DNA from: Shinella granuli
GTDB lineage: Bacteria; Pseudomonadota; Alphaproteobacteria; Rhizobiales; Rhizobiaceae
Direction: 5' to 3'
NCBI RefSeq assembly: GCF_004341885.1
Contig: NZ_SLVX01000004.1
Location: 62,001-126,000 of the forward strand
Length of the DNA: 64,000 nt
The notes under the pieces are model-generated. The model had not been told where the DNA came from. It was given only the letters and a program-made list of their open reading frames with translations, and ran no database searches. Positions within the stretch are counted from its first letter, which is position 1, and every line of letters starts with the position of its first letter. The translations under genes and the position numbers were made by a program. Below are positions 7,633 to 30,390 of this stretch, one piece after another.

Positions 7633-10649
<3,017 letters not shown>

Positions 10650-12966: not shown

Positions 12967-12973
12967 GGGAACC

Positions 12974-14337: not shown

Positions 14338-14362
14338 GGTGGCGTATAGTGAACCTTCCGCC

Positions 14363-14506
14363 GCGTGGATCCTCGGGTCGAGCCCGAGGATGACGGAGGG
14401 GAGGAGAGGTCACGGACCTCATGAACGATGCGGCATGCGATGCCGTTGGTTTGACGCCAAGCCTCTCTTCTTTCGTCATCCTCGGGCTTGACCCGAGGAT
14501 CCACGC
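14363..14506. repeat. ~145-bp MITE-like element with inverted palindromic ends (family B), inside the pca operon
   Basis: The left end GTGGATCCTCGGGTCGAGCC and the right end ATCCTCGGGCTTGACCCGAG are inverted copies of one palindromic unit, with a ~75-nt middle. A second copy of the same size lies at 16917-17062 between pcaM and pcaN, also sharing the GGGGAGGAGAGGTC motif inside the left end. Here it separates pcaG from pcaB. There is no coding capacity. It probably forms a long hairpin in the mRNA. Confidence 0.8.
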
Positions 14507-14531
14507 GCTTCCCATCGCAAAAGAACGCCCC

Positions 14532-15587
14532 ATGACCGTTTCGCCCTTCGACCACCCCTATCTCTCCGGCCTCCTCGGCGACGAGGCGGTGGCGGCGCTG
14601 TTTTCCGTCGCGGCGGAACTCGAGGCCATGCTGGCCTTCGAGGTGGCGCTGGCCAAGGCCGAGGCGGAGGCGGGCGTCATCCCGGCGGACGCGGCCGGGG
14701 CGATCGAGGCGGCCGCGCACCGCTTCTCGCCCGATGTCGCGAGTCTCAGGGCCGCCACCGCCCGTGACGGCGTGGTGGTGCCCGATTTCGTTCGCCAGCT
14801 CCGCGCCGCCGTCGGCGAGCCGCATGGCCGGCATGTGCATGTCGGCGCGACCAGCCAGGATGTCATCGACAGCGGGCTGATGCTGCGCCTCTCCCGCGTC
14901 TTGCCCGTTCTTGAGAAACGGCTGGGGGGGCTGGCCGGCGTGCTCGATGGCCTCGCCGCGTCCTTCGGCGACCGGGAGATGATGGGGCGCACCCGCATGC
15001 AGGCCGCCATCCCCATCACCGTGGCGGACCGCGTCGGCGCCTGGCGCACGCCGCTGGAGCGCCATCGCACGCGCTTGACGGGCCTGATGGAGGAGGGGCT
15101 TGCCGTACAGTTCGGCGGCGCGGCGGGCACGCTGGAGAAACTGGACGGAAGAGCACCGGCCGTGCGCGCCGCGCTTGCCCGCAAGCTCGGCCTTGCCGAT
15201 GTCCCGCAATGGCATAGCCAGCGGGACCGCATCCTGGATCTGGCCGCCCTCCTTTCCGGCATCACCGGCAGCCTCGGCAAGATCGGGCAGGACGTCGCCC
15301 TGATGGCCGACCGGGGCGACGAGATCGTGCTCGCCGGCGGCGGCGGTTCCTCCGCCATGCCGCACAAGCAGAACCCGGTCGCCGCCGAAGTTCTGGTCAC
15401 GCTCGCCCGCTTCAACGCGGCGCAGCTCGGCGGGCTGGCACAGGCGATGGTGCACGAGCAGGAGCGTTCCGGCGCGGCCTGGACGCTCGAATGGCTGATC
15501 CTGCCGCAGATGGTCGTCGCCGCCGGCGCTGCCCTCCGCCTTGCCGACACGCTGCTGTCGTCGCTTCGCCGGCTGGGTGTGACTTGA
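14532..15587 (+). CDS. pcaB: 3-Carboxy-cis,cis-muconate cycloisomerase
   Basis: The protein (351 aa) belongs to the fumarase/aspartase superfamily and cyclises 3-carboxymuconate to gamma-carboxymuconolactone. The superfamily signature is GGGGSSAMPHKQNPV (~272); HVHVGATSQDVIDSG (~100) and VQFGGAAGTL (~193) are further blocks. Length is at the short end for PcaB (many are 350-450 aa), with the C-terminal domain reduced. The start is ATG 14532. It is the last gene of pcaDCHGB and lies behind the family B repeat. Confidence 0.95.
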   Translation: MTVSPFDHPYLSGLLGDEAVAALFSVAAELEAMLAFEVALAKAEAEAGVIPADAAGAIEAAAHRFSPDVASLRAATARDGVVVPDFVRQLRAAVGEPHGRHVHVGATSQDVIDSGLMLRLSRVLPVLEKRLGGLAGVLDGLAASFGDREMMGRTRMQAAIPITVADRVGAWRTPLERHRTRLTGLMEEGLAVQFGGAAGTLEKLDGRAPAVRAALARKLGLADVPQWHSQRDRILDLAALLSGITGSLGKIGQDVALMADRGDEIVLAGGGGSSAMPHKQNPVAAEVLVTLARFNAAQLGGLAQAMVHEQERSGAAWTLEWLILPQMVVAAGAALRLADTLLSSLRRLGVT

Positions 15588-15596
15588 GGTATTTTA

Positions 15597-15657
15597 ATAA
15601 CTCCTAAGTTATGAAATGGCCATACTTTTTCATTTTACATTACCGTTTCATCTGTCA
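15597..15657 (+). promoter_or_regulatory. PcaQ box and promoter region of pcaMNVWX
   Basis: ATAACT-CCTA-AGTTAT (15597-15612) is a perfect 6-bp inverted repeat with 4-nt spacer, a PcaQ-type site. It is followed after 18 nt by CATTTTACATTACCGT (15631-15646) and CTGTCA (15652-15657). Spacing matches the pcaD promoter exactly. It starts 9 nt after the pcaB stop and lies 115 nt upstream of pcaM. Confidence 0.85.
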
Positions 15658-15726: not shown

Positions 15727-16899
15727 ATGAAACATGTCGCGATCGCCGCGCTGGCGGCTGTGCTGATGGGCGGCGTCGCCCATGCCGATACGATCAAGGT
15801 CGGCGTCGTCGGGCCGTTCTCCGGCCCCTTCGCGCTGCAGGGCAAGAACTTCAAGGCGGGCATCGACGCCTATATGGCGCTGAACGGCAACACGGTCGGC
15901 GACGATACGATCGAGGTGATCTACCGCGACATCCCGAGCGCCGATCCGGCCCAGTCCAAGGCGCTGTCGCAGGAGCTCGTCGTCAAGGAAGGCGTGCAGT
16001 ACCTGGCCGGATTCTACTTCACGCCGGATGCCATGGCCGCGACCCCGCTGCTCGAACAGGCGAACGTGCCCATGGTGGTGATGAACGCGGCGACCTCCGC
16101 CATCGTCACCAAGAGCCCCTATGTGGTGCGCACCTCCTTCACCACCTGGCAGACCTCGACACCGATCGCCAAGGTCGCCTTCGACGGCGGTACCAGGAAG
16201 GTCATTTCCGTCGTCAGCGACTACGGCCCGGGCGTCGACGCGGAAGCCGCCTTCAAGGCGGGATTCGAGGCGGCGGGCGGCGAGATCGTCGAGGCGATCC
16301 GCATGCCGCTCCAGACCAACGATTTCTCGCCGATCATGCAGCGCATCAAGGATTCGGGCGCCGAGGGCGTCTTCGCCTTCCTGCCCTCGGGCCCGACGAC
16401 GCTCGGCTTCGTCAAGGCCTTCAACGAGAACGGTCTCAAGGCCGGCGGCGTCAAGTTCTTCGCCCCCGGCGACCTGACGCAGGAATCCGACCTGCCGGCG
16501 CTCGGCGAGGCGGCGCTGGGTCTCACGACCACCTTCCACTATGCCGTCTCGCACGATTCGGCGGAGAACAAGAGCTTCGTCGAGGCCGCCGGCAAGGCGA
16601 TCGGCGATCCGGCGGAGCTCTCCTTCCCGGCGGTCGGCGCCTATGACGGCATGCATGTCATCTACAAGATGATCGAGGCGACGGGCGGCGAACCGGATGC
16701 GGCCAAGGCGGTCGAAGCCGTCAAGGGCCTTTCCTGGGAAAGCCCGCGCGGGCCGGTGACGATCGATGCGGAAAGCCGCCACATCACGCAGAACATCTAC
16801 CTGCGCGAAGTGGCCAAGGCCGATGACGGGACCTATTACAACAAGGAGGTCCAGACCTTCGAGAAGCAGGGCGACCCGGGCCTTGCGGCGGCGAAGTAA
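15727..16899 (+). CDS. pcaM: Protocatechuate ABC importer, periplasmic binding protein
   Basis: The protein (390 aa) has a Sec signal peptide (MKHVAIAALAAVLMGGVAHA, cleaved before DTIKVG) and a mature domain of the branched-chain amino-acid (HAAT/LivK, type I) binding-protein family (KVGVVGPFSGPFALQGKNFKAG split over ~24-45). In Sinorhizobium meliloti the orthologous system pcaMNVWX imports protocatechuate and is PcaQ-regulated. Here it directly follows pcaDCHGB, is preceded by a PcaQ box and leads five transporter genes in the order M-N-V-W-X. The substrate is inferred from this context. Confidence 0.88.
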   Translation: MKHVAIAALAAVLMGGVAHADTIKVGVVGPFSGPFALQGKNFKAGIDAYMALNGNTVGDDTIEVIYRDIPSADPAQSKALSQELVVKEGVQYLAGFYFTPDAMAATPLLEQANVPMVVMNAATSAIVTKSPYVVRTSFTTWQTSTPIAKVAFDGGTRKVISVVSDYGPGVDAEAAFKAGFEAAGGEIVEAIRMPLQTNDFSPIMQRIKDSGAEGVFAFLPSGPTTLGFVKAFNENGLKAGGVKFFAPGDLTQESDLPALGEAALGLTTTFHYAVSHDSAENKSFVEAAGKAIGDPAELSFPAVGAYDGMHVIYKMIEATGGEPDAAKAVEAVKGLSWESPRGPVTIDAESRHITQNIYLREVAKADDGTYYNKEVQTFEKQGDPGLAAAK

Positions 16900-16916
16900 C
16901 GTGTTTTGCGCCGGGC

Positions 16917-17062
16917 GGGTGGATCCTCGGGTCAAGCCCGAGGATGACGGCGGGGAGGAGAGGTCGCGAACCCCGTCCGACGTTGTGGCAAGCGGAACCG
17001 TCGCATTGATCCACCGCCTTCTCTTCTTGCGTCATCCTCGGGCTTGACCCGAGGATCCACCC
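16917..17062. repeat. ~145-bp MITE-like element, family B, second copy
   Basis: GTGGATCCTCGGGTCAAGCC at the left and ATCCTCGGGCTTGACCCGAG at the right mirror each other and match 14363-14506. It lies between pcaM and pcaN. In other binding-protein-dependent systems a hairpin behind the binding-protein gene raises its relative expression; this element could act the same way. Confidence 0.8.
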
Positions 17063-17110
17063 GCATATCCGGACAAACGGCCGCAAGCCCGGCCACAGCA
17101 GGATAGTTTG

Positions 17111-17974
17111 ATGCAAACGGTCTTCAGCATCGGCGTCGATGCGCTCGCCTACGGCATGGTGCTCTTCGTCATCTCGATCGGCCTCTCGGTGACGATGGGG
17201 CTGATGCGGGTCGTCAACCTGGCGCATGGCGCCTTCGCGATGATCGGCGGCTACATCGCCTCCTATGCCGCGCGCGACCTCGGCCTTGCCTATGCGTTCG
17301 CCGTCCTCCTCGCCGTCTTCGGCACCATCCTCATCGCCATTCCGGTCGAGCGCCTGCTCTACCGCCGCATCTACGGCCAGCCGGAGCTGACGCAGGTGCT
17401 GATGACCATCGGCATCACCTTCTGCGTCATCGGCATCGCCAACTATGTCTTCGGCCCGACGCTCAAGACCATCCCGACGCCGGAAAGCCTGCGCGCGCCG
17501 GTCAGCCTCGGCTTCCGCACGGTCTCGGCGCACCGTCTCTTCGTCATCGCCTGCGGCGCCGCGGTCGCGCTCGGCCTCTGGTACTTCATCGAGCGCACCG
17601 CCTTCGGCGTGAAGCTGCGCGCGAGCGTCGACAATGCGGCCATGGCCGCCGCCCTCGGGGTGAAGACCGAAGTGGTCTATGCCGTCAGCTTCGCCGTCGC
17701 GGTCGGCCTTGCCGCCTTCGGCGGCGTCGTCGGCGCCGAGCTGCTGCCGATCGAACCCTATTATGCGCTGCGCTACATGGTGACCTTCCTCGTCGTCGTC
17801 TCGGTCGGCGGGGCGGGGTCCATTCCGGGTGCGCTCGCCGCCTGCCTGCTGCTCGGCGCCATCGACACGACGGGGCGCTACCTGATGCCGGAATTCGGCG
17901 AATTCTTCTTCTATCTCGCGGTCATCGCCATCGTCTGGATTTTCCCGCGCGGCCTTGCCGGAAGGGCGAAGTGA
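17111..17974 (+). CDS. pcaN: Protocatechuate ABC importer, permease (LivH type)
   Basis: The protein (287 aa) is an inner-membrane permease with about eight hydrophobic segments and the LivH signature GLSVTMGLMRVVNLAHGAFAM split near residues 25-45, plus the cytoplasmic-loop block GGAGSIPGALAACLLLGAIDT (~236). The ATG at 17111 is preferred over the adjacent TTG at 17108. It overlaps pcaV by TGATG and pairs with PcaV to form the membrane channel. Confidence 0.88.
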   Translation: MQTVFSIGVDALAYGMVLFVISIGLSVTMGLMRVVNLAHGAFAMIGGYIASYAARDLGLAYAFAVLLAVFGTILIAIPVERLLYRRIYGQPELTQVLMTIGITFCVIGIANYVFGPTLKTIPTPESLRAPVSLGFRTVSAHRLFVIACGAAVALGLWYFIERTAFGVKLRASVDNAAMAAALGVKTEVVYAVSFAVAVGLAAFGGVVGAELLPIEPYYALRYMVTFLVVVSVGGAGSIPGALAACLLLGAIDTTGRYLMPEFGEFFFYLAVIAIVWIFPRGLAGRAK

Positions 17975-18981
17975 TGGCGCTGACCATGAACACCGAAACC
18001 CTCTCCACCGCCCGGGACCGCCGCGCCCGCCTGACGCGCGACGCGGTCGGCGTCCTCGTCATCCTCGCGGTCGCCGTCCTCGGCTATCTCCTCTTCCCCA
18101 ACAATCTCGCGCTGCTGACGCGCATCACGGCGATCGCGCTGCTGGTCCTCTCGCTCGACCTCGTCACCGGCTATTGCGGCGTGGCGACGCTCGGCCATGC
18201 CGCGCTCTTCGGAGCGGGGGCCTATGGGGCGGGCATCGCGGCGGCCCATTTCGGCATCACCGATCCGATCGCCATGCTGGCCGTCGGCGTGGTCGCGGGC
18301 GCGCTCGCCGGCCTCGTCTCCGGCGCCGTCGTGCTTCGGGCACACGGCCTGCCGCAGCTCGTGCTCTCCATCGCCATCATTCACCTCGCCCATGAGGCGG
18401 CGAACAAGGCATCCGGCTGGACCGGCGGCAGCGACGGCCTTGCCGGCATCATGCCGGATGCCGTCTTCGGCCTCTATCCGTTCGACCTGTGGGGCCGCAC
18501 GGCCTATGTCTTCGGCATCGTGCTGCTCATTGCCGCCTTCGTCATCCTGCGCCAGATCGTGCGCTCGCCCTTCGGCATGCTCTGCCGCGGCATCAAGCAG
18601 GATCCGCTGCGCGTGCGCGCCATGGGCGCCTCGGTGCACGGCACGCTGATCCGGATGTATGCCATATCGGGCGCCGTCGCCGGGGCGGGCGGGGCGCTCA
18701 ACGCCCTCTCGACCCAGGTCGTCGGCCTCGACAGCCTGTCCTTCACGCTCTCGGCCGAAGCCCTCGTCATGCTGGTGCTCGGCGGCACCGGCTCGCTCTA
18801 CGGCGCATTGATCGGCACGCTTTCCTTCCTGTGGTTCGAGGATGTCGTCTCGGCGGCCAACCCGTTCCACTGGCTCACCATCGTCGGCGCGCTGCTGATC
18901 GCCGTGGTGCTCTTCGCGCCGAAGGGGCTCTACGGCTCGCTCGCCGCCCTTCTCGAACGCCGCGGGAGGACGGACCGATGA
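17974..18981 (+). CDS. pcaV: Protocatechuate ABC importer, permease (LivM type)
   Basis: The protein (335 aa) is the LivM-type permease: LDLVTGYCGVATLGHAALFGAGAYG (~53-77) is the family signature and VLGGTGSLYGALIGTLSF (~268) the coupling-loop block. About ten hydrophobic segments are visible. The ATG shares bases with the pcaN stop and its own stop overlaps the pcaW start (ATGA), so N-V-W are tightly coupled. Confidence 0.88.
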   Translation: MALTMNTETLSTARDRRARLTRDAVGVLVILAVAVLGYLLFPNNLALLTRITAIALLVLSLDLVTGYCGVATLGHAALFGAGAYGAGIAAAHFGITDPIAMLAVGVVAGALAGLVSGAVVLRAHGLPQLVLSIAIIHLAHEAANKASGWTGGSDGLAGIMPDAVFGLYPFDLWGRTAYVFGIVLLIAAFVILRQIVRSPFGMLCRGIKQDPLRVRAMGASVHGTLIRMYAISGAVAGAGGALNALSTQVVGLDSLSFTLSAEALVMLVLGGTGSLYGALIGTLSFLWFEDVVSAANPFHWLTIVGALLIAVVLFAPKGLYGSLAALLERRGRTDR

Positions 18982-19742
18982 ACGCGATCTTCGATGTCCG
19001 CAACCTGAAGCGGACCTTCGGCGGCCTCGCCGTCACCAACGACGTCTCCCTGTCGATGGCGCCGGGCGACCGGGTCGCGCTGATCGGCCCGAACGGTGCC
19101 GGCAAGACGACCTTCGTCAACCTCGTCACCGGCAACCTCCTGCCCAATTCCGGCTCCGTCGCGCTCGGCGGCGAGGATGTCACCCGCCTCGGGCCGACGG
19201 AGCGCGTGCGCCGCGGCCTCGTGCGGTCCTTCCAGGTGACGCGGCTCTTCTCCGAGATGACGCCGGAGGAGCATGTCGCGCTCGCCATCCTGCAGCGCGA
19301 GGGCCGGACCGGCCGCATGTTCGCCAGCCACCGCGCCATGCCTGACGTGATGGACGAGGTGCATGCGCTTCTTGCCCGGCTCGGCATCGCCCATCTTGCC
19401 CGCCACCGCGTCAGCGAGATCGCCTATGGCCAGCAGCGGCTCCTGGAGCTTGCGCTTGCCCTTGCGCTCAAGCCCCGGGTCCTGCTGCTCGACGAGCCCG
19501 CCGCCGGCGTGCCGCAGAGCGATACGGCGCGCATCGAGCAGGCGATCGCCGACCTGCCGGCGGATCTCGCCGTGCTGATGATCGAGCACGACATGGACCT
19601 CGTCTTCCGCTTCGCCAGGCGCGTCGTCGTGCTGGCGGCGGGCGAGATCATCTTCGACGGATCGCCCGACGCGGTGACGAAGGATGCCCGCGTCCGCCAG
19701 GCCTATCTCGGGAGTTATGCCTATGCCCGCAGCGTCGCTTGA
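18978..19742 (+). CDS. pcaW: Protocatechuate ABC importer, ATPase (LivG type)
   Basis: The protein (254 aa) has Walker A GPNGAGKTT (~38), Walker B RVLLLDEPAAGVP (~170) and switch His in MIEHDMDLVF (~202). The signature motif is degenerate, SEIAYGQQRLLELA in place of LSGGQ, as usual in LivG proteins. The C-terminal VRQAYLGSY is typical of the HAAT ATPases. It starts within the pcaV stop codon and its end overlaps pcaX. Confidence 0.88.
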   Translation: MNAIFDVRNLKRTFGGLAVTNDVSLSMAPGDRVALIGPNGAGKTTFVNLVTGNLLPNSGSVALGGEDVTRLGPTERVRRGLVRSFQVTRLFSEMTPEEHVALAILQREGRTGRMFASHRAMPDVMDEVHALLARLGIAHLARHRVSEIAYGQQRLLELALALALKPRVLLLDEPAAGVPQSDTARIEQAIADLPADLAVLMIEHDMDLVFRFARRVVVLAAGEIIFDGSPDAVTKDARVRQAYLGSYAYARSVA

Positions 19743-20439
19743 AATATCCGGCCTTTCCGCCGGCTACGGCCCGACGCGGGTGCTGGAAGGCATCTCCTTT
19801 GCCGCCGATGCCGGCCGCAGGCTCGCTGTGCTCGGCCGTAACGGCATGGGGAAGTCCACGCTCTTCGCCACGCTCGCCGGCCAGACGAAGCGCTATGGCG
19901 GCGAAATCCGCCTCGGCGGCGAGGCGATCGAGGGCATGGGCAGCTCCGCCCGCGCCCTGAAGGGCCTCGGCTATGTGCCGCAGTCGCGCGACGTCTTCCC
20001 GACGCTGACGGTGGAGGAGAACCTCTTCGTCGGGCTGAAGGGCCGTCCGCGTGCGGCCATCGAGGAGGCCTACCAGATGTTCCCGCGGCTCAAGGAGCGG
20101 CGCCGGAACCTCGGCTCGCAGCTTTCCGGCGGCGAACAGCAGATGCTGACGACGGCGCGCACCATTCTCGGCCAACCCTCCGTGCTTCTGCTCGACGAGC
20201 CGCTGGAGGGCCTTGCCCCGGTCATCTGCGAGGAGCTGATGGCGGCATTCGGCACGCTCGCGGCCTCCGGCGAAATGACCATCCTCCTCGTCGAGCAGCG
20301 CATCCAGAGTGCACTCGATTTCGCCGACGACGTGATCATCCTGGAACGCGGCCGCATCGCCTGGACAGGCACCCCGGCGGCGCTCTCCGCCGACCGGCAC
20401 ACGGTCGAAACCCTGCTCGGCGTCGGCGGGCTGCACTAG
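19723..20439 (+). CDS. pcaX: Protocatechuate ABC importer, ATPase (LivF type)
   Basis: The protein (~238 aa) has Walker A GRNGMGKST (~38), signature QLSGGEQQMLTTARTIL (~138) and Walker B VLLLDEPLEGLAP (~158). Two in-frame ATGs lie inside the end of pcaW (19717 and 19723); the second is chosen because GGAG (19711-19714) is then 8 nt upstream. It is the second nucleotide-binding subunit, pairs with PcaW, and is the last gene of the importer operon. A family C repeat follows its stop at once. Confidence 0.87.
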   Translation: MPAASLEISGLSAGYGPTRVLEGISFAADAGRRLAVLGRNGMGKSTLFATLAGQTKRYGGEIRLGGEAIEGMGSSARALKGLGYVPQSRDVFPTLTVEENLFVGLKGRPRAAIEEAYQMFPRLKERRRNLGSQLSGGEQQMLTTARTILGQPSVLLLDEPLEGLAPVICEELMAAFGTLAASGEMTILLVEQRIQSALDFADDVIILERGRIAWTGTPAALSADRHTVETLLGVGGLH

Positions 20440-20488
20440 AGGAATTCCAGCAAAAGTGCGCAGCGGTTTTGCGGCCGGAATTCCGTAA
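20440..20488. repeat. Family C palindromic repeat behind pcaX
   Basis: GGAATTCCAGCAAAAGTGCG then CAGCGGTTTTGCGGCCGGAA and TTCC. GGAATTCCAGCAAAA pairs with TTTTGCGGCCGGAATTCC. It is nearly identical to the copy at 31290. It marks the end of the importer operon and may act as terminator. Confidence 0.7.
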
Positions 20489-20503
20489 TTCCAAGCGCCA
20501 TTC

Positions 20504-20564
20504 ATACGGTTTTCGTTATGCATCGCGGTCGGCATTTCATTTTACATCACCGTCCCGCCTGTCA
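20504..20564 (+). promoter_or_regulatory. Third PcaQ-type promoter region, upstream of the ThDP enzyme gene
   Basis: ATACGG-TTTT-CGTTAT (20504-20519) is an imperfect PcaQ-like dyad: the right half GTTAT fits, the left half ATA-C-- is weaker. After exactly 18 nt comes CATTTTACATCACCGT (20538-20553) and CTGTCA (20559-20564). The 27-nt block from CATTTTAC to CTGTCA agrees with the pcaM promoter at 22 positions. The shared spacing supports PcaQ or a close relative; the weak half-site leaves some doubt. Confidence 0.65.
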
Positions 20565-20645
20565 GAGTGCGGTCTGAGGCCTGTACCGTCCGGTTCGAGG
20601 AGACCGGCGGCCGCGGGCAGGCTGCCGGACGACGGGGAGGTTCCG

Positions 20646-22367
20646 ATGGGCGAAGACGATCTTGCCGGGGCACCGGCGATGACGGCGGGCGGTGCGCTGC
20701 TCGCCCGGCTGAAGGCGGTCGGCATCGACTATATCTTCGCCAATTCCGGCACGGATTTCCCGCCGATCATCGAGGGCCTGGCCGAGGCGGAGGCGAAGGG
20801 CATCGCCCTGCCGCAGGCGCTCGTCATGCCACACGAATCGGCGGCGATGGGCATGGCGCACGGTTATTATCTGGCGACGGGCCGCGCGCAGGCCGTGATG
20901 GCGCATACCAATGTCGGCCTTGCCAATTGCGCCATCGGCGCGATCAACGCCGCGATGGAGCATGTCCCGGTCCTGCTCTTCTCCGGCCGCACGCCGGTCA
21001 CCGAGCGCGGACGGAAGGGGTCGCGCACCGTGCCGATCGGCTGGGGGCAGGAGATGCGCGACCAGGCGGCGCTGGTGCGCGAGGCCTGCAAGTGGGACGA
21101 CGAGCTGCGCTTTCCCGAGCACATCCCGCAGATGGTCGACCGGGCGCATGCCATCGCCTGTTCCACCCCGCGCGGACCGGTCTATATGAGCCTGCCGCGC
21201 GAGGTGCTCTGCCAGCCCTGCCCGACCGAGGGCCTGGAAGCGCCCGCAACGATGATGCCGGCCGTCGCCGCGCCGCCGGCCGAAGCGGTGGCGGAGGCCG
21301 CGCGCCTGCTTGCGGCGGCGGAGAACCCGGTGGTCTTCGCGCAGCGCGGCGCCGGCTCGGCCGAGGGTTTTGCCGCCCTCGCGGCGCTCACCGGCGAATG
21401 GGGCATTCCCGTCTGCCAGTACTGGGCGGTGCAGCTTGCCATGGCGACGGACCATCCGATGGCCGCGCAGGCCGACCCTGGGCCGCTGCTGGAGGCGGCG
21501 GATGTGGTGCTGGTCCTCGATGCGCTGGCGCCCTGGTCGCCGGACGTCCATGCGCTGCGGCCCGGCTGCAAGGTCATCCAGCTCGCCCAGGACCCGCTCT
21601 ACCAGCGCCAGCCGGTGCGCTACTTCCGCTCCGACGTGACGCTTGCCGGCGATGTCGATGCCGGCCTCCTTGCCCTGAAGGCGGCGATGGACCCGCTGCT
21701 GCCCGCCCATCGCGCCAGGGCGGAACGCCGCGCCATGGCGTTGGCGGAACGCAACCGGAAAGCCCGCGCCGCCGTGCTCGATGCGGCCCGGCGCGGCGGC
21801 GGCACGCCGATGACCAAGGACTTCGTCAGCCTGACGCTTTCCGAGGCGCTGGCGGGCCGGGATGCCACCGTGCTCTCCGAACTCGGCTGCCCGCTTTCGC
21901 CGATGACGCTCTCCCATCACCAGGCCTGGTATCAGGAGCCGCATTCCGGCGGGCTCGGCTGGTGCTTTCCGGCGGCGCTCGGCATGCAACTGGCGCGGCG
22001 CGAGCGGCTCGTCGTCGCCACCATGGGCGACGGCTCCTACATGTTCGCCAATCCCGTCGCCTGCCACCAGATCGCCGAGGCGCTGGATCTGCCGATCCTC
22101 GTCCTCATCGTCAACAATGCCGAATGGGGGGCGGTGCGCCAGTCTGTGCTCGGCCTCTATCCGGACGGGTATGCGGCCAGGACCAACCGCATGCCGCTGA
22201 CCGCGCTTTCGCCGGTGCCGGATTTTGTGAAGGTCGCCGAGGCGAGCCGGGCCCATGCCCGGCGCGTCACCGACGGCGCGGCGCTCGCCGGCGCGCTTGC
22301 CGAGGCGATCGACCATATCGAGACGAAGCGGACGCTCGCGCTGCTCGACATCGCGGTCCGCGCCTGA
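20646..22367 (+). CDS. Thiamine-diphosphate-dependent enzyme (acetolactate synthase/benzoylformate decarboxylase-like)
   Basis: The protein (573 aa) has the three-domain layout of ThDP decarboxylases and carboligases: an N-terminal pyrimidine-binding domain with a candidate catalytic Glu in MPHESAAMGMAHGYYLATG (~61), a central domain, and a C-terminal pyrophosphate domain with GDGSYMFANPVACHQ ending in VNN (GDG-x-NN, ~460-490). The start ATG 20646 follows GGGGAGG. It lies behind a PcaQ-type promoter and 24 nt upstream of an aromatic-ring side-chain cupin. An inferred role is decarboxylation or cleavage of an aryl-oxo acid or hydroxyketone, giving an aryl aldehyde. The true substrate is unknown. 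Confidence 0.8.
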   Translation: MGEDDLAGAPAMTAGGALLARLKAVGIDYIFANSGTDFPPIIEGLAEAEAKGIALPQALVMPHESAAMGMAHGYYLATGRAQAVMAHTNVGLANCAIGAINAAMEHVPVLLFSGRTPVTERGRKGSRTVPIGWGQEMRDQAALVREACKWDDELRFPEHIPQMVDRAHAIACSTPRGPVYMSLPREVLCQPCPTEGLEAPATMMPAVAAPPAEAVAEAARLLAAAENPVVFAQRGAGSAEGFAALAALTGEWGIPVCQYWAVQLAMATDHPMAAQADPGPLLEAADVVLVLDALAPWSPDVHALRPGCKVIQLAQDPLYQRQPVRYFRSDVTLAGDVDAGLLALKAAMDPLLPAHRARAERRAMALAERNRKARAAVLDAARRGGGTPMTKDFVSLTLSEALAGRDATVLSELGCPLSPMTLSHHQAWYQEPHSGGLGWCFPAALGMQLARRERLVVATMGDGSYMFANPVACHQIAEALDLPILVLIVNNAEWGAVRQSVLGLYPDGYAARTNRMPLTALSPVPDFVKVAEASRAHARRVTDGAALAGALAEAIDHIETKRTLALLDIAVRA

Positions 22368-22391
22368 ACCATCACACGAGGAGGAAAATCC

Positions 22392-22925
22392 ATGCCCGAG
22401 CTTGCCACGAACGAATTCTGGAAGGACCTGAAGCCGATCGACAAGGTGTTCCAGCCGGATGCCCTGCCGGAAGTCTATCTTCGGAATGCGCCGACCGACG
22501 ACGAGCGCTACTACGTGCCCTTCACCGAGACCGTCTCCTCCCGCCCGCTGTGGATCTCGCCGACGCAGAACAAGTGGTGCGATATCCTGATGGCGAAGAA
22601 GGCAGGCCTGGTGAACCGGCACTACCACCCGCACGAGGTCTTCGCCTACACGATCTCCGGCAAGTGGGGCTATCTGGAGCACGACTGGACGGCGACGGCC
22701 GGCGATTTCGTCTACGAGACGCCCGGCGAGGGCCACACGCTCGTCGCCTACGAGCACGAGCAGCCGATGAAGGTGTTCTTCCAGGTCAAGGGCCCGCTCA
22801 TCTGGCTCGACGACAGGGGCGAACCGGACGGCTTCTTCGACGTGCACAACTACATTGCGCTGTGTCGCGACCACTACGAGAAGGTCGGGCTCGGGCGGGA
22901 TTATGTGGAGCGGCTTTTCCGCTAG
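22392..22925 (+). CDS. Cupin dioxygenase, 2,4'-dihydroxyacetophenone dioxygenase-like
   Basis: The protein (177 aa) is a single-domain cupin. The metal-binding motif is VNRHYHPHEVFAYTISGKW (His, His and Glu ~70-76) with the second motif GDFVYETPGEGHTLVAYE (~105-120, His ligand). The length and sequence plan match the 2,4'-dihydroxyacetophenone dioxygenase family, which cleaves the side chain to 4-hydroxybenzoate and formate using Fe(II). 4-Hydroxybenzoate is the substrate of PobA, encoded 13 kb away. It shares an operon with the ThDP gene. The assignment is to family; substrate is inferred. Confidence 0.72.
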   Translation: MPELATNEFWKDLKPIDKVFQPDALPEVYLRNAPTDDERYYVPFTETVSSRPLWISPTQNKWCDILMAKKAGLVNRHYHPHEVFAYTISGKWGYLEHDWTATAGDFVYETPGEGHTLVAYEHEQPMKVFFQVKGPLIWLDDRGEPDGFFDVHNYIALCRDHYEKVGLGRDYVERLFR

Positions 22926-23029
22926 TTCTTGCTTGTTTCCTGCGGAACAGCGCGGGGCGGGGCGATGTGAGACCTTCTGATCACCGGATGAGAGAGGCTC
23001 ATCCCCAACAAGAGATCTGGAGAGACCCC

Positions 23030-23206
23030 ATGCGCAAGATCATCGTTTCCGCCACCGTCGCCCTCATTGCCGCCGTCTCCTTCGCCGCCCCCTCGCAGGC
23101 CGGCTACTACAGCTACGGCTACAAGCCGCACTGCTTCATCAAGAAGGTCAAGGCCTACGACTACTACGGCAATGTCATCTTCAAGACGGTCAAGGTCTGC
23201 AAGTAA
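23030..23206 (+). CDS. Small secreted Tyr-rich protein of unknown function
   Basis: The protein has 58 aa. MRKIIVSATVALIAAVSFAA with PSQA looks like a Sec signal peptide cleaved before GYYSYG. The mature ~34 residues are rich in Tyr and Lys and carry two cysteines (positions ~34 and 57) that could form a disulfide. The start has GGAGAG upstream and a clear terminator follows at 23234-23263, so it is a single-gene unit. I do not recognise the family. It separates the ThDP-cupin pair from the dehydrogenases on the other strand. Confidence 0.7.
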   Translation: MRKIIVSATVALIAAVSFAAPSQAGYYSYGYKPHCFIKKVKAYDYYGNVIFKTVKVCK

Positions 23207-23275: not shown

Positions 23276-24034
23276 TCAGATGCTCATGCCGCCGTCCACC
23301 ATCAGCATCGTCCCGGTGACGAAGCTCGACTGGTCCGAGGCGAGATAGAGCACCGCGCGGGCGATCTCCCCGGGGCTGGCATGGCGGCCCATGGGAATGA
23401 GCGCGTTGAAGAAAGCCGTGCCGTCCATGCCGGTCGCGGCGCCGAGACCCTGTTCCACGGCAAGCTGGAAACCGTTGTCGACGGGGCCGGGATTGACCGT
23501 GTTGACGCGGATGCCGCGCGGGGCGAGTTCCTTGGCAAGGCAGCGCATCAGGCCGGTCTGGGCGTGCTTGGCGGTGATATAGGCATAAACGCCGGGATCG
23601 CCGCGCGTCGCCGCCACGCTGGAGGTGATGACGATGCTGCCGCCGCTGCGCATGTGCGGCACGGCATGCTTGGCCGCAAGGAAGGCGCCGCGCACATGGA
23701 CCGCCTGCACCATGTCGAAGATGTCCAGCGGATAGTCGGCGATGGGGGCGACGGTGCCGAAGACGCCGGCATTGGAGAACAGGATGTCGATGCCGCCGAA
23801 GCGCTCGACGGCGAGCTTGACATAGGCCTTCGTCGAAAGGCTGTCGGTGACATCCGCCGCCGCGAGCGCCACGCGCTCCCGCGGCAGGCCGGCGGCGGCC
23901 CGTTCGAGCCCCGCGCGGTCGCGGTCGACAAGGACGAGATTGGCGCCCTCGTCGAGGAAAAGCCGGGCGGTGGCAAGGCCGATGCTGCCGGCTCCACCCG
24001 TCACGATGGCGGTCTTTCCGTCGAGAAGCACCAT
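23276..24034 (-). CDS. Short-chain dehydrogenase/reductase (SDR)
   Basis: The protein (252 aa) is a classical SDR: cofactor loop TGGAGSIG (~12), NAG at LFSNAGVFG (~88), catalytic Ser in VITSSVAA (~137), YAYITAKHA with Tyr/Lys (~150-154). The acid after beta-2 (LVLVDRDRAG) suggests NAD+ preference. It is the last gene of the aldehyde dehydrogenase-importer operon (3-nt gap behind the ALDH gene). A role in oxidising an aryl alcohol or hydroxyketone is plausible from context only. Confidence 0.85.
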   Translation of the reverse strand: MVLLDGKTAIVTGGAGSIGLATARLFLDEGANLVLVDRDRAGLERAAAGLPRERVALAAADVTDSLSTKAYVKLAVERFGGIDILFSNAGVFGTVAPIADYPLDIFDMVQAVHVRGAFLAAKHAVPHMRSGGSIVITSSVAATRGDPGVYAYITAKHAQTGLMRCLAKELAPRGIRVNTVNPGPVDNGFQLAVEQGLGAATGMDGTAFFNALIPMGRHASPGEIARAVLYLASDQSSFVTGTMLMVDGGMSI

Positions 24035-24037
24035 GGG

Positions 24038-25489
24038 TCAGATCGGATAATGGATGGCGCCGTCCTGCACGGTGATCCAGCGCAGTTCGGTGAATTCGGC
24101 GATGCCGGCCTTGCCGCCGAAACGTCCGTAGCCGGATTCCTTGACGCCACCGAAGGGCATCTGCGCCTCGTCGTGCACGGTCGGGCCGTTGATGTGGCAG
24201 ATGCCGGATTCGATGCGGCGGGCGACCTGCATGGCGCGGTTGACGTCCCGGCCGAAGACGGCGGCGGAAAGGCCGTATTCCGTGTCGTTGGCAACCCGCA
24301 CCGCCTCGTCGATCGAGCCGACGCGGATGACGCTGACGACCGGGCCGAAGCTCTCCTCGCTGTAGATGCGCATGGCGGGCGTCACCCGGTCGAGCAGGGT
24401 GGCATCGACGATCGTGCCCTGCACGCTGCCGCCGGCCGCAAGCACCGCGCCCTTGCCCACGGCATCGCGGATGAGCTGTTCCAGCCTCTGGGCCGCATGG
24501 GCATCGACGACGGAGCCGAGCGGCGTGTTGCCCTCGCGCGGATCGCCGGCAACGAGGGTTGCCGCCTTCTCGGCGAGCGCCGCGACGAAGCGGTCGGCGA
24601 CCGTCTCGTCGACGACGATGCGTTCGGTCGACATGCAGATCTGGCCCTGGTTCATGTAGGCGCCGAAGGCCGCGGCGGCGACGGCCGCGTCGATATCGGC
24701 ATCGTCGAGCACCACGAAGGGCGCCTTGCCGCCGAGTTCCAGCAGCGCCGGCTTCAGGTAGCGCCCGGCGGTCTCGGCGATGATGCGGCCGACGCGGGTG
24801 GAGCCGGTGAAGTTGACGCGGCGCACGGCGGGATGGGCGATCATCGCCTCGACGATGGCGGCGGCATCCTCCGGCGCATTGGAGACGGCGTTGAGCACGC
24901 CTTCCGGCAGGCCGGCCTCGTGCAGCGCATCGACGATCAGCCGGTGGGTGCGCGGGCAGATTTCCGAGGTCTTCATGACGACCGTGTTGCCGCAGGCAAG
25001 CGGGGTGGCGAGCGAGCGCACGCCGAGGATGACCGGCGCGTTCCACGGCGCCATGGAGAGGACCACGCCGGCCGGCTGGCGCACGCCCATGGCGAGCGAT
25101 CCGGGGCGGTTGGAGGGGATGATCTCGCCGGTGATCTGCGTCGTCAGCGATGCGGCCTCGCGCAGCATGTCGGCGGCAAGGCCGACATTGAACATCGCCC
25201 AGCCGGCCGTCGCGCCCGTCTCGGCGGCCATGGCGGCGACGAAATCGGCGGTTCTCGCCTGCAGCTTGTCGGCGGCGGCAAGAAGCAGCTTGCGGCGCTG
25301 GCCGGGGCCGGTCGCCGCCCAGGCGGGAAAGGCCTTCGCCGCGGCATTGACGGCCTGGCGCGCATCCTCCAGCGAGGCGGCGGCGACCTCCGAGGCGACC
25401 TCGCCGGAAATCGGGTTGATGCGGGTGAAGGTGCGCCCGTCGGAGGCGGCCTGGTCGAGGTTGTTGATCTTCAGTCCAAGGACGGACAT
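24038..25489 (-). CDS. Aldehyde dehydrogenase, aryl-aldehyde (vanillin/salicylaldehyde) type
   Basis: The protein (483 aa) is an NAD(P)+-dependent aldehyde dehydrogenase with the oxyanion Asn in MAPWNAPVILG (~150), cofactor loop FTGSTRVGRIIAE (~228), general base Glu in LLELGGKAPFVVLDDADID (~251) and nucleophile Cys in NQGQICMSTERIVVDE (~285). QICMSTERI is the variant seen in vanillin and salicylaldehyde dehydrogenases. The start ATG 25489 is preferred to the upstream codons. It would convert an aryl aldehyde, such as 4-hydroxybenzaldehyde, to the acid that feeds pobA or pcaHG. Confidence 0.87.
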   Translation of the reverse strand: MSVLGLKINNLDQAASDGRTFTRINPISGEVASEVAAASLEDARQAVNAAAKAFPAWAATGPGQRRKLLLAAADKLQARTADFVAAMAAETGATAGWAMFNVGLAADMLREAASLTTQITGEIIPSNRPGSLAMGVRQPAGVVLSMAPWNAPVILGVRSLATPLACGNTVVMKTSEICPRTHRLIVDALHEAGLPEGVLNAVSNAPEDAAAIVEAMIAHPAVRRVNFTGSTRVGRIIAETAGRYLKPALLELGGKAPFVVLDDADIDAAVAAAAFGAYMNQGQICMSTERIVVDETVADRFVAALAEKAATLVAGDPREGNTPLGSVVDAHAAQRLEQLIRDAVGKGAVLAAGGSVQGTIVDATLLDRVTPAMRIYSEESFGPVVSVIRVGSIDEAVRVANDTEYGLSAAVFGRDVNRAMQVARRIESGICHINGPTVHDEAQMPFGGVKESGYGRFGGKAGIAEFTELRWITVQDGAIHYPI

Positions 25490-25510
25490 GGTTTGCTCCC
25501 TGCTTGACAT

Positions 25511-26224
25511 TCAGACGGTTGCGCCGAGGAACGCGCGCTTCACCGCGTCGTCGTTCATCAGTCCTGCTGCGGTATCCTCGCCGACGATGCGGCCTGCCTC
25601 CAGGAGGTAGCCGCGGTCGGCGATCGAAAGGCTCATCTTGACGTTCTGCTCGACGATCAGGAGCGCCAGCCCGCTCTCGCGCACCCGGCCGAGCGCGGCG
25701 AAGAGCTCGCCGACGACGACGGGGGCAAGGCCGAGGCTCGGCTCGTCGAGCATCAGGAGGTCGGGCTTTGACATCAGCGCGCGGCCGATCGCCACCATCT
25801 GCTGCTCGCCGCCCGACATGGTGTTGACGAACTGCCGCCGCCGGTCGGCGAGTTTCGGGAAGAGGCCGTAGACCAGCTCGCGGCTCGCCCTGCCATGGGC
25901 GCGGGCGCGCCTGGCATAGGCGCCGAGGGCAAGGTTCTCCTCCACCGTCAGGTCGCCGAAGACGCCGCGGCCCTCCGGCACCAGCGCGATGCCGGCCTCG
26001 AGCACGAGATGGGCGGGGCGGCCGGCAATGTCCGCGCCGGCAAAGCGGATATCGGCGCCGGGATCGGGCCGGACGAGGCCGGCGGCGGCCTTCAGCAGCG
26101 ACGACTTGCCCGCACCGTTGGCGCCGAGCATGACGACGGTCTCGCCCCTGCCGACGGCGACGGAGATGCGGTCGAGGGCAAGGTGCGGGCCGTAATGGAG
26201 GGAGAGGTCGCGGATCTCAAGCAT
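25511..26224 (-). CDS. Second HAAT-type ABC importer, ATPase (LivF type)
   Basis: The protein (237 aa) has Walker A GANGAGKSS (~36), signature TMSGGEQQMVAIGRAL (~135) and Walker B LLMLDEPSLGLAP (~155). It is a cytoplasmic ATPase subunit of a branched-chain-type importer separate from pcaMNVWX. It overlaps the LivG-type gene by 8 nt. The solute is probably an aromatic related to the downstream ALDH and SDR, inferred from operon context. Confidence 0.87.
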   Translation of the reverse strand: MLEIRDLSLHYGPHLALDRISVAVGRGETVVMLGANGAGKSSLLKAAAGLVRPDPGADIRFAGADIAGRPAHLVLEAGIALVPEGRGVFGDLTVEENLALGAYARRARAHGRASRELVYGLFPKLADRRRQFVNTMSGGEQQMVAIGRALMSKPDLLMLDEPSLGLAPVVVGELFAALGRVRESGLALLIVEQNVKMSLSIADRGYLLEAGRIVGEDTAAGLMNDDAVKRAFLGATV

Positions 26225-26945
26225 GGCCGTCTCCGAGATAGGCGCGCACGACCTCCGGGTCCCGCAGCGTCTCGGCGGTCGGGCCGTCGGCGATCTTGCG
26301 GCCGGCATTCATGACGATGGCGCGCCCGCAGAGCGCCCGGATCGCATCCATGACATGCTCGACGAGGAGCACGGTGATGCCGCGCTCCTTGAGCGACAGG
26401 ATGAGGTCGATGCCGATGCGAAGCTCCGTCGGGTTGAGCCCGGCGAGCCATTCGTCGAGCAGAAGCAGCTCCGGCTCGGCGGCGAGCGCCCGGGCAAGCT
26501 CCATGCGCTTCTGGTCGATATAGGTGAGGGCGCCGGCCGGCTGGTCGGCGCGTCCGGCAAGGCCGACGGCGGCAAGATGGGCGTGGGCGGCCTCGTGGGC
26601 CGCCTTGCCCCAGAGCGTCCGGCGGCCGAAGGCAAGCGCGGTGACGACGTTTTCGGCGACCGTCAGCGAGGGAAGGGCGCGCACGAGCTGGAAGGTGCGG
26701 GCGACGCCTTTCCTGGCGATGCGGTTCGGGCGAAGGCCGGAAATCGCCTCGCCGTTGAGGGCGATCCGCCCGCCGGTCGGCGGCAGGAAGCCGGAGATCA
26801 TGTTGAGCACCGTCGTCTTGCCGGAACCGTTCGGGCCGAGCAGGCCGACGACCTCGCCGCGCTCCAGCGAGAAGGAGACCGCATTGACGGCGGTGAGCCC
26901 CCCGAAGCGCTTGGTGAGGCCGTCGAGCGCAAGAAGCTCGCTCAT
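26217..26945 (-). CDS. Second HAAT-type ABC importer, ATPase (LivG type)
   Basis: The protein (242 aa) starts MSELLALDGLTKRFGGLTAV and has Walker A GPNGSGKTT (~38), a degenerate signature ALTYIDQKRMELARALA (~140), Walker B LLLLDEWLAGLNP (~161; Trp replaces the usual Pro after DE) and switch His in LLVEHVMDAI (~190). It overlaps the LivM-type permease gene by 4 nt. Confidence 0.87.
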   Translation of the reverse strand: MSELLALDGLTKRFGGLTAVNAVSFSLERGEVVGLLGPNGSGKTTVLNMISGFLPPTGGRIALNGEAISGLRPNRIARKGVARTFQLVRALPSLTVAENVVTALAFGRRTLWGKAAHEAAHAHLAAVGLAGRADQPAGALTYIDQKRMELARALAAEPELLLLDEWLAGLNPTELRIGIDLILSLKERGITVLLVEHVMDAIRALCGRAIVMNAGRKIADGPTAETLRDPEVVRAYLGDGHA

Positions 26946-27865
26946 CGCGCACCGCCTTTCCTTAGCCGGCTTTCGACGGCCGCCAGCACGCCCTTCGGCA
27001 GAAGGAAGACGATGGCGATGAAGACGAGGCCGAGGATGATCGGATAGTGGTTCGGGAAGTTGGCGGAAAGCCACTCGAAGAGCAGGAAGAGCGGAATGGC
27101 GCCGAGCAGCGGGCCCCAAAGCCGGTCCGCCCCGCCGAGCAGCGCCATGATCAGCGTCAGGAAGGAGATGGTCGGGTTGAAGGCGATGCTCGGCTCGATA
27201 TAGGTCCAGCGCGGCGCCTGGATGGCCCCGACGAGCGTGATGATCACGGCGCTGACGGCAAAGAGCGCGAGCTTGAGCCGGGTGATGTCGATGCCGCAAT
27301 GGCTCGCCACCACCTCGTCGTCGCCAATGACCTTCAGCGCGAGGCCCCAGCGCGTGCGGCCGATGCCCCAGGAGAAGAGGAAGGTGGCGGCGGCGAGCGC
27401 GAGTAGCTGCCAGTAGATGCCCTCCGGCGTCACGGGCAGGAAGATGTAGCGGCCGAGCGTGCCGGTCACGTTGACCTCGTACCAGGTGACGAGCTGGCGG
27501 ATGAGCTCCGCAAGACCGAAGGTGAAGATCACGAAATAGACGCCGGCAAGCCGAAGCGTCGAGAGCCCGACGACCAGCGCCACGGCAAGGCCGATCAGTG
27601 CCGCGACGAGGAGGACGAGCGGATAGGGCAGCGTCTCGCTGAAGACGCCGACCGTATAGGCGCCGATGCCGAAGAAGGCGACGGTGGCGAGCGAGACATA
27701 GCGCGTCGGGCCGGAGAACAGGCCCCAGGCGGTGGCGAGCACCACATAGCCGGTCATGCCGATCATCAGCGTCACCGCATAGGGCCCGGCGAAGAGGGGC
27801 AGGGCGGCGAGCGCGGCGAGAACGAGGCCGGCGACGAGGAGGCCGAGAAGCGTGCGTGCCGTCAT
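26942..27865 (-). CDS. Second HAAT-type ABC importer, permease (LivM type)
   Basis: The protein (307 aa) has about nine hydrophobic segments; TAWGLFSGPTRYVSLATVAFFGIGAYTVGV split over ~44-73 is the LivM signature, and LIMALLGGADRLWGPLLGAI (~250) the ATPase-contact loop. ATG 27865 overlaps the LivH-type stop. It is an inner-membrane subunit. Confidence 0.87.
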   Translation of the reverse strand: MTARTLLGLLVAGLVLAALAALPLFAGPYAVTLMIGMTGYVVLATAWGLFSGPTRYVSLATVAFFGIGAYTVGVFSETLPYPLVLLVAALIGLAVALVVGLSTLRLAGVYFVIFTFGLAELIRQLVTWYEVNVTGTLGRYIFLPVTPEGIYWQLLALAAATFLFSWGIGRTRWGLALKVIGDDEVVASHCGIDITRLKLALFAVSAVIITLVGAIQAPRWTYIEPSIAFNPTISFLTLIMALLGGADRLWGPLLGAIPLFLLFEWLSANFPNHYPIILGLVFIAIVFLLPKGVLAAVESRLRKGGAR

Positions 27866-28734
27866 CGCGCGCTCCTCCCGAAGAGGCCGGCGGGGCGCCA
27901 GAGCAGGATGGCGAGGAAGATGAGGTAGGTGGCGGCGAGCGTCAGGCCGGGGTCGACATAGGTCGCCACGAAGGTCTCGACAAGGCCGAGCAGCAGGCCG
28001 GAGAAGAGCGCGCCGAGAATGTTGCCGACGCCGCCCATGATGACGACGATCAGCGCCTTCATGGTGAAGACGACGCCGGCCGTGGCGGTGAAGGTCTGGT
28101 ACATGGAGATGACCACGCCGCCGGCGGCCGCCAGCGCCCCGCCGATGGCGAAGGCCGTGCGGGCCGCGCGCTCGACATCGATGCCGACGAGCGGCGCGGA
28201 GGTCGGCGAGACGGCGACGGCGCGCAGCGCCGTGCCCCAGAGCGTGCGGGTGAGGAGCAGGTAGAGCCCGCCGCCGAGGACGATGGCGAGCGCGAAGGCG
28301 AGGAGGCGGTTGGCCGCGATCGTGGTGCCGAGCACGCTGACGCCGATATTGAGATAGCTGTAGCTCGTATAGTTGCTGCCGAAGAAGACGAGCATGACGC
28401 CCTGGATGACGAAGAGCAGGCCGAAGGTGGCGAGGATGGAGTCGATCTCCAGCGTCTCCCGGCTCTTCGCGCGGCGCACCAGCGGGCGCATCATCAGGCC
28501 GTAGACGAGATAGCCGAAGACGAAGCCGAGCGGCACGGCGATCAGAAGGCCGAGCACCGGATTGATGCCGAGGCCGTTGAACAGCACATAGGCGAGGAAG
28601 GCCGCCGCGATGATCGTCTCGCCATAGGCAAGGTTCATGATGCGCGCGATGCCGTACTGGAGCGTCAGCCCCATCGCGACCAGCGCATAGGTTCCGCCGA
28701 GCACGAGCCCGGACAACAAGGCCGTGACGAGCAT
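27862..28734 (-). CDS. Second HAAT-type ABC importer, permease (LivH type)
   Basis: The protein (290 aa) carries LVAMGLTLQYGIARIMNLAYGE (~17-38, LivH signature) and VIMGGVGNILGALFSGLLLG (~226, coupling loop), with about eight hydrophobic segments. A family A palindromic repeat separates it from the upstream binding-protein gene, as is common in this transporter type. Confidence 0.87.
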   Translation of the reverse strand: MLVTALLSGLVLGGTYALVAMGLTLQYGIARIMNLAYGETIIAAAFLAYVLFNGLGINPVLGLLIAVPLGFVFGYLVYGLMMRPLVRRAKSRETLEIDSILATFGLLFVIQGVMLVFFGSNYTSYSYLNIGVSVLGTTIAANRLLAFALAIVLGGGLYLLLTRTLWGTALRAVAVSPTSAPLVGIDVERAARTAFAIGGALAAAGGVVISMYQTFTATAGVVFTMKALIVVIMGGVGNILGALFSGLLLGLVETFVATYVDPGLTLAATYLIFLAILLWRPAGLFGRSAR

Positions 28735-28793
28735 GGCCGCTCCTTACATTTGGGCCAACCGAAAGGGCGAGCCTCTTCATTCAATGACAGAAT

Positions 28794-28933
28794 GCCCCTC
28801 ATCCGGCCTGCCGGCCACCTTCTCCCCGTGAACGGGGAGAAGGAGATATGCCGCGTCGGTTTCCCCAAGCAGTTCCCGCTCGTGGGGCACGTCCCCTCTC
28901 CCCGCTTGCGGGGAGAGGGTTAGGGTGAGGGGC
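28794..28933. repeat. Family A palindromic repeat, copy 2
   Basis: GCCCCTCATCCGGCCTGCCG at the left and GGGTTAGGGTGAGGGGC at the right enclose hairpins CTTCTCCCCGTGAACGGGGAG and CTCTCCCCGCTTGCGGGGAG. It lies between the binding-protein gene and the LivH-type permease gene inside the operon. Confidence 0.85.
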
Positions 28934-28982
28934 ACATTTTGGTCCGCCAGAGCGCCCTTCGATCCCCTCGCGCGGCGTGCGG

Positions 28983-30209: not shown

Positions 30210-30348
30210 CGTCGATTCCTCCCAAAAGGCCTGCTCTTCGGCAGGCGTCGCGCCAAGGCGGGCAGCGGCCACGTTCTCCTCCGGGCCTTCTGTCGCTGCT
30301 TGACGGATGAAAGGTTAGCCGCAGGCGGGGCAGGGCGGAATAGACTTT

Positions 30349-30366
30349 TACAAGAGATACTTGTAC
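30349..30366. promoter_or_regulatory. TACAAG-N5-CTTGTA inverted repeat upstream of the importer operon and araC-type gene
   Basis: TACAAG (30349-30354) and CTTGTA (30360-30365) are perfect arms around AGATA, followed by C at 30366. The site lies 25 nt upstream of the AraC-type start and 140 nt upstream of the binding-protein gene. Its ACTTGTAC matches the palindrome between pobR and pobA. Confidence 0.5.
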
Positions 30367-30390
30367 TTTTCACGGCAAGGAGATCCCGCC

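Follow-up and report, generated by a model that had tools for sequence, protein, structure and literature searches.

The window analysed here is a 64,000-nucleotide stretch of the Shinella granuli genome, which contains a gene for a thiamine diphosphate (ThDP)-dependent enzyme followed by a gene for a cupin. We consider it roughly an even bet (probability about 0.5) that this pair makes up the exit step in a cluster of genes funnelling phenols with two-carbon side chains into 4-hydroxybenzoate and is co-controlled by PcaQ. A first-pass annotation had described the two open reading frames (ORFs) as a tight pair directly behind the protocatechuate importer. Both ORFs were found where it had placed them, and 24 nucleotides separate the ThDP stop codon from the cupin start. 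The pair lies 3' of the genes for a pcaMNVWX-type importer, in which Pfam finds a binding protein, two permeases, and two ATPases; pcaDCHGB and pcaQ are located further upstream. The box drawn around the two genes was nevertheless too small, since a short-chain dehydrogenase/reductase (SDR), an aldehyde dehydrogenase (ALDH), a second ATP-binding cassette (ABC) importer, and an AraC-family regulator adjoin the pair and recur with it. The coordinates are collected in Table 1.

Enzymes of the 2,4'-dihydroxyacetophenone dioxygenase (DAD) family convert 4-hydroxyphenacyl alcohol and O2 to 4-hydroxybenzoate and formate. The cupin is predicted to be such an enzyme, and its membership in this family, which had been suggested before, is well supported by sequence. 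The ORF contains Cupin_7 and Cupin_2 domains (Pfam), and its closest solved relative is the DAD of Alcaligenes sp. 4HAP (4p9g, 333.9 bits; also 5bpx), with which it shares 134 of 173 aligned residues. Seventeen active-site residues were taken from PMC4219425, and 16 of them are retained in the cupin. These include the iron-binding triad, with histidines 76, 78, and 114 of the solved enzyme corresponding to H77, H79, and H115; the tryptophan and the aspartate modelled as phenol ligands are unchanged. The one residue of the 17 that differs is M156, which is a leucine in Shinella. The Shinella gene also differs from its Alcaligenes counterpart in sharing an operon with a ThDP enzyme.

Conservation of the pair was assessed in the best 80 of 271 DAD relatives, obtained with their flanking regions from a scan of genome contigs; several of these loci end at contig ends. 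A ThDP gene is present within the flank in 25 of the 80 loci, and in 23 of these it is located directly upstream of DAD, in the same orientation and less than 100 bp away. The exceptions are L013, in which the ThDP gene was matched in part, and L031, in which it lies 9 kb away and is truncated by the end of the stretch. An ALDH gene occurs in 39 DAD loci (24 of the 25 with the ThDP gene versus 15 of the 55 without it); Fisher's exact test gives a p value of 3e-9 for this association, which is overstated because the loci are related. Within the flanks, which extend to 10 kb at most, three of the 80 loci, all from Shinella, show direct linkage to pca genes, as does a Sulfitobacter plasmid. A conserved position of the pair beside non-aromatic genes, which the first-pass annotation had named as a refutation, was not seen; where the pair recurs, it is mostly accompanied by the same set of ALDH, SDR, and importer. 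In 199 genomes of the family, drawn from a larger group, the ThDP gene was detected in 35, DAD in 14, and both in 10 at the thresholds used, and the two genes are adjacent in eight of these 10.

A phylogeny was calculated for the ThDP proteins. Hits shorter than 480 residues or below 44% identity were omitted, and with them the partial L013 and L031; six of 55 sequences were dropped as duplicates, leaving 49. A split with an SH-like support of 0.969 places all 28 proteins encoded next to DAD on the same side, together with two proteins not encoded next to DAD, from L105 and L113. The 28 include the protein from genome G176, a further genome beyond the eight with adjacent genes, where the DAD gene next to the ThDP gene (L107, positions 3222-3750) is split over two frames, reflecting a frameshift or an assembly error. 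In L105 (genome G011, positions 1230-1510) the ThDP gene is 85% identical to that of the window, and no DAD lies between it and the SDR gene. DAD was not found in this genome and appears to have been lost. Where DAD would be, between the SDR and ThDP genes, the sequence is similar by eye to the repeat-like ctcatccggcctgccggccacc stretch of the window (Table 1).

From the adjacency, the co-occurrence counts, and the tree we conclude that the pair is real and conserved, and that neither gene depends on the other. DAD and the ThDP enzyme might act on different substrates and be merely co-regulated suppliers of 4-hydroxybenzoate or its aldehyde, a possibility that is compatible with our preferred reading. 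Each gene is common alone among the 199 genomes, and in Rhizobium deserti (L031) the distant ThDP gene forms a unit with an alpha-hydroxy-acid oxidase gene. However, the two genes are usually adjacent where both are present, and the adjacent ThDP genes group together; we regard separate substrates as rather unlikely.

Neighbours of ThDP genes without DAD were inspected in 10 loci whose flanks measured at least about 6 kb; among plasmid records carrying a ThDP match, 12 of 19 were examined. A similar ALDH is present in five of the 10 loci, a TRAP permease in five, an alpha-hydroxy-acid oxidase in two, pobA in one, and pcaB in one. The Neorhizobium petrolearium locus contains an ALDH, a TRAP transporter, and an alpha-hydroxy-acid oxidase, the Paroceanicella locus an ALDH and an alpha-hydroxy-acid oxidase, and the Ponticoccus locus an ALDH, a mandelate-racemase-family gene, and a tricarboxylate-type transporter. 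Chelatococcus has pca genes, ALDH, and TRAP at this place, Roseivivax has TRAP, pobA, and pcaHG, Neorhizobium EC2-8 has ALDH, MarR, and TRAP, and an unannotated Allorhizobium record has MarR and TRAP homologues. The neighbours in Pseudosulfitobacter, Sagittula, and Klebsiella were uninformative. The informative contexts fit the logic of mandelate and aryl-C2 pathways, in which an aryl-glyoxylate is decarboxylated to the aldehyde.

The ThDP ORF contains three TPP_enzyme domains (Pfam) and scores 661 bits against NF006203 (PRK08327; cut-off 456), a model whose NCBIfam name, 'thiamine pyrophosphate-requiring protein', specifies no reaction. H87 of the protein aligns with His70 of benzoylformate decarboxylase in both solved decarboxylases shown; it is kept in all 49 family sequences, and three aligned acetolactate synthases have a threonine at this position. 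E64, equivalent to the cofactor-binding Glu47, is also kept in 49 of 49, but this glutamate is present in the aligned acetolactate synthases as well and has no discriminating value. H302 (45 of 49) lies near the position of His281, in a region where the alignment is unreliable.

Other observations weigh against a decarboxylase. The protein fails the benzoylformate decarboxylase model NF005485 (143 bits, cut-off 493). Ser26 of benzoylformate decarboxylase is conservatively replaced by T36 (49 of 49), and Glu28 is absent, with F38 at this place in the alignment (phenylalanine in 47 of 49). The His70Thr exchange impairs benzoylformate decarboxylase only about 8-fold (PMC6028569). A fold predicted from 16 sequences was of medium confidence (pLDDT 66); its top structural matches were tied among other ThDP enzymes, and the comparison did not separate decarboxylases from carboligases. 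Benzoylformate decarboxylase was not among the 50 structural matches listed, an absence that excludes nothing. Because the informative contexts and the His70 equivalent speak for decarboxylation, and the Ser26 and Glu28 changes, the low profile score, and the mild effect of His70Thr speak against it, we grade the ThDP enzyme, at about even odds, as probably a 4-hydroxybenzoylformate decarboxylase, belonging to a family of its own.

Alternatively, the ThDP enzyme could be a hydroxyketone lyase or carboligase that splits or makes an aryl alpha-hydroxyketone, either the DAD substrate or a longer ketol; both enzymes would then draw on a common pool, either one after the other or as alternative routes. 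The separation of the DAD-adjacent proteins in the tree (28 of 28, plus the two others), as if they were adapted to ketols, would agree with this, as would the missing Glu28 and the tie of the predicted fold with carboligases. We consider it unlikely in view of the histidine at the His70 position and of those DAD-less relatives that adjoin mandelate-type enzymes and aldehyde dehydrogenases, a setting that fits arylglyoxylate decarboxylation. A candidate ThDP route for the chloramphenicol side chain found no support in a literature search, the one paper retrieved being unrelated to judge by its abstract.

The promoter of the ThDP-DAD operon had been described as sharing its layout with the pcaD and pcaM promoters, and this was borne out, with module and spacing exact at all three sites. 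The module GTTA-N18-TCATTTTAC, which was itself derived from these three sites, has exact matches in the window at 11680, 15608, and 20515. In the whole 6.59-Mb genome it occurs three times with at most one mismatch, precisely at the pcaD, pcaM, and ThDP promoters, and no fourth site was found at this tolerance; the module read backwards, used as a control, gave one match. With a motif derived from pcaD and pcaM alone (32 fixed positions), the ThDP site scores 22. The next best site in the window that was not a source reaches 19, and in 20 random sequences of 64 kb the top score per sequence ranges from 17 to 20.

The box at the ThDP site is ATA-N10-TAT, the form of the Sinorhizobium meliloti pcaM site quoted in PMC5002191; it resembles a PcaQ box, though not an ideal one. 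A strict search for ATAACC-N4-GGTTAT with three mismatches does not list this site, and the eight matches that it returns (3.3 expected) are reached in four of 100 shuffles; both results count against PcaQ control. All five of the 21 genomes of the genus that carry the ThDP gene hold three modules, and the other 16 hold zero to two (Fisher p 5e-5, relatedness not corrected for). In the five genomes 101-108 bp separate the end of the third copy from the point where the alignment to the ThDP gene begins. The promoter is kept in three named Shinella loci, and among 95 loci scanned, the only others with an exact module are two from Devosia. In these the copy (L042, 1410; L026, 1507; both on the minus strand) is about 7 kb from the pair, and in L042 it lies just upstream of a TRAP small-permease ORF, not of the pair.

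Putative PcaQ control of the ThDP-DAD operon is supported by these sequence comparisons. That the third promoter is instead no PcaQ target, resembling that of pcaM without binding, and that the AraC/HpaA-type regulator controls the pair would suit the failure of the strict palindrome search and the AraC-type regulators (two kinds searched) in 22 of the 25 ThDP-carrying DAD loci (all except L010, L015, and L048), but it is quite improbable given a module and spacing that are exact at three of three genome sites and kept in all five ThDP-carrying genus genomes found.

The genes adjoining the pair on its other side recur with it. An Ensifer plasmid carries the same set of ABC importer, ALDH, SDR, ThDP enzyme, and DAD, and on the Sulfitobacter plasmid this set adjoins pca genes, pobA, and pcaQ. 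The ALDH has salicylaldehyde and vanillin dehydrogenases as its nearest solved relatives (626 and 622 bits). The SDR scores 216 bits against NF005559 (cut-off 215) and 201 bits against the model for meso-2,3-butanediol dehydrogenase (cut-off 270). An SDR is present in 50 of the 80 DAD loci and a 2,3-butanediol-type dehydrogenase in 13 (Pseudomonas, Comamonas, and Marinobacterium types among others); when Pseudomonas-type SDRs are included, 68 loci contain at least one of these enzymes, and none was seen in the remaining 12. SDRs and 2,3-butanediol-type dehydrogenases often interconvert vicinal diols and hydroxyketones. Because such dehydrogenases occur near DAD, we infer that an aryl glycol may be oxidised to the DAD ketol. 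The permease of the second importer is found in 49 of the 80 loci, and a major facilitator superfamily (MFS) transporter in 17, none of which has the ABC permease.

In our preferred reading, the second ABC importer would take up the substrates, the SDR would oxidise an aryl glycol to 4-hydroxyphenacyl alcohol, and DAD would cleave the latter with O2 to 4-hydroxybenzoate and formate. The ThDP enzyme probably decarboxylates 4-hydroxybenzoylformate to 4-hydroxybenzaldehyde, from which the ALDH would form 4-hydroxybenzoate; PobA and then the Pca enzymes would finish the route. PcaQ, sensing a signal of the protocatechuate pathway, probably turns on the ThDP-DAD operon along with pcaD and pcaM, and the AraC/HpaA-type regulator probably governs the arm of importer, ALDH, and SDR. 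Entry from 4-hydroxyacetophenone was also considered. The side-chain route into 4-hydroxybenzoate that the first-pass annotation had put forward agrees with the presence of PobA (61% to an annotated PobA) and of an aryl-aldehyde dehydrogenase in the window. More tentatively, at somewhat less than even odds, we suggest that the one operon would provide two exits, one O2-dependent (DAD, releasing formate) and one O2-independent (a ThDP subfamily whose active site has a layout of its own), and that it would have been acquired, together with a promoter of its own, as a cassette between pcaX and the gene that follows, thereby entering the PcaQ regulon.

The pair and its promoter behave as a presence/absence cassette, as judged from the junction in a relative without the pair (G216) and from the distribution of the SDR. 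In G216 the sequence after the pcaX stop codon runs straight into the leader of a small ORF, the one that separates the pair from the SDR in loci of the Shinella type (23030-23206 in the window); positions 20442-22933 of the window (BLAST boundaries), promoter included, are missing. The SDR was present in four of four tested relatives with the ThDP gene and in none of five without it. We prefer a gain by transfer, with loss as the alternative.

DAD, the decarboxylation of 4-hydroxybenzoylformate, and the PcaQ regulon have each been described (PMC4219425, PMC9811514, PMC7760541, PMC4495286). The 4-hydroxybenzoylformate (aryl-C2) cluster of Rhodococcus jostii RHA1 (PMC9811514, PMC10167727) likewise uses a ThDP enzyme and an aryl-aldehyde dehydrogenase to reach 4-hydroxybenzoate, whereas the ThDP enzyme in Shinella belongs to another family (PRK08327) and DAD, SDR, and ABC importer are added. 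For the glycolate (alpha-hydroxy-acid) oxidase of RHA1 type, a search of the window with the L005 oxidase found no homologue at 1e-10. The bzf and mdl clusters for benzoylformate and mandelate in Pseudomonas (PMC7760541) follow the same logic of decarboxylase, aldehyde dehydrogenase, and transporter; bzf differs in its uptake by MFS transporter and porin and in its LysR regulator, and the accessible text of that paper mentions no DAD. The PcaQ regulon of S. meliloti and Rhizobium leguminosarum (PMC4495286, PMC5002191) is similar in PcaQ, the pcaMNVWX importer, and the form of the box, whereas Shinella has a third operon, ThDP-DAD, behind a similar promoter.

In the open-access literature we found no description of the ThDP-DAD pairing or of its position under a PcaQ-type promoter, and no paper joining 'thiamine pyrophosphate-requiring' with hydroxyacetophenone or Shinella with hydroxyacetophenone. 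The first-pass annotation, which likewise named no described ThDP-cupin operon in the PcaQ regulon, is partly supported: its promoter, DAD, and route agree with the data, but the pair belongs to a larger cluster, and the pathway is not new in every part, DAD and 4-hydroxybenzoylformate decarboxylase each having been published. If true, our reading would assign a function to the ThDP proteins of the PRK08327 family and would show how Shinella-type soil bacteria bring aryl-C2 fragments of the lignin type under the protocatechuate regulon. Possible uses of the enzymes are lignin funnelling and the making or cleaving of aryl ketols. Because the cassette is present in some genomes of the genus and absent from others, the regulatory claim can be tested directly.

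Table 1. Features of the window around the ThDP-DAD pair (window positions).
Feature	Position	Strand	Basis
PcaF homologue	3139-4335	-	80% to annotated PcaF
AraC-family regulator (second in window), divergent from pobA, PobR-like by position	7617-8501	-	
pobA, 4-hydroxybenzoate 3-monooxygenase	8617-9786, inside ORF 8506-9789	+	61% over 390 aa to annotated Sulfitobacter PobA; Pfam FAD_binding_3
APH-family phosphotransferase ORF, between pobA and pcaQ	9783-10649	-	
pcaQ, LysR-type regulator	10738-11679	-	NCBIfam TIGR02424, 439 bits (cut-off 304)
PcaQ-type promoter of pcaD	11669-11710 (box 11669-11684, module 11680-11710)	+	
pcaD, pcaC, pcaH, pcaG, pcaB	11757-15587	+	PcaD TIGR02427 and PcaB TIGR02426 above cut-off; PcaC Pfam CMD; PcaH PCDO_beta_N; PcaG Dioxygenase_C
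PcaQ-type promoter of pcaM	15597-15638 (box 15597-15612, module 15608-15638)	+	
pcaMNVWX-type ABC importer (binding protein, two permeases, two ATPases)	15727-20439	+	Pfam domains; binding protein 501 bits to solved 4f06
Putative third PcaQ-type promoter	20504-20545 (box ATA-N10-TAT 20504-20519, module 20515-20545)	+	
ThDP-dependent enzyme, PRK08327 family, probable 4-hydroxybenzoylformate decarboxylase	20646-22367	+	NF006203; context and residues
Cupin, predicted 2,4'-dihydroxyacetophenone dioxygenase (DAD)	22392-22925	+	333.9 bits to 4p9g
Small ORF, signal-peptide-like start, Tyr/Gly-rich stretch	23030-23206	+	between pair and SDR
SDR, probable aryl-glycol or ketol dehydrogenase	23276-24034	-	Pfam adh_short_C2
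Aryl-aldehyde dehydrogenase (ALDH)	24038-25510	-	626 bits to salicylaldehyde dehydrogenase 6qhn; 622 to vanillin dehydrogenase 9ihb
Second branched-chain-type ABC importer, two ATPases and two permeases	25511-28734	-	Pfam ABC_tran, BPD_transp_2
Repeat-like stretch (ctcatccggcctgccggccacc and similar) between importer genes	28783-28960		
Substrate-binding protein of second importer	28983-30272	-	Pfam Peripla_BP_6
AraC-family regulator, HpaA-like	30361-31290	+	Pfam HTH_18; TIGR02297 94 bits, below cut-off 275

Some DAD genes have other neighbours. In L025, L060, and L063 these are an AMP-binding enzyme, alpha/beta hydrolases, and acyl-CoA enzymes, which gave no clear lead. In L004 (a Pseudomonas aeruginosa plasmid) and L078 (PA7), DAD is found with an MFS transporter, a butanediol-type dehydrogenase, a porin, a GMC oxidoreductase, and hpaB; these two stretches contain no ThDP gene and represent a second, different DAD cluster.

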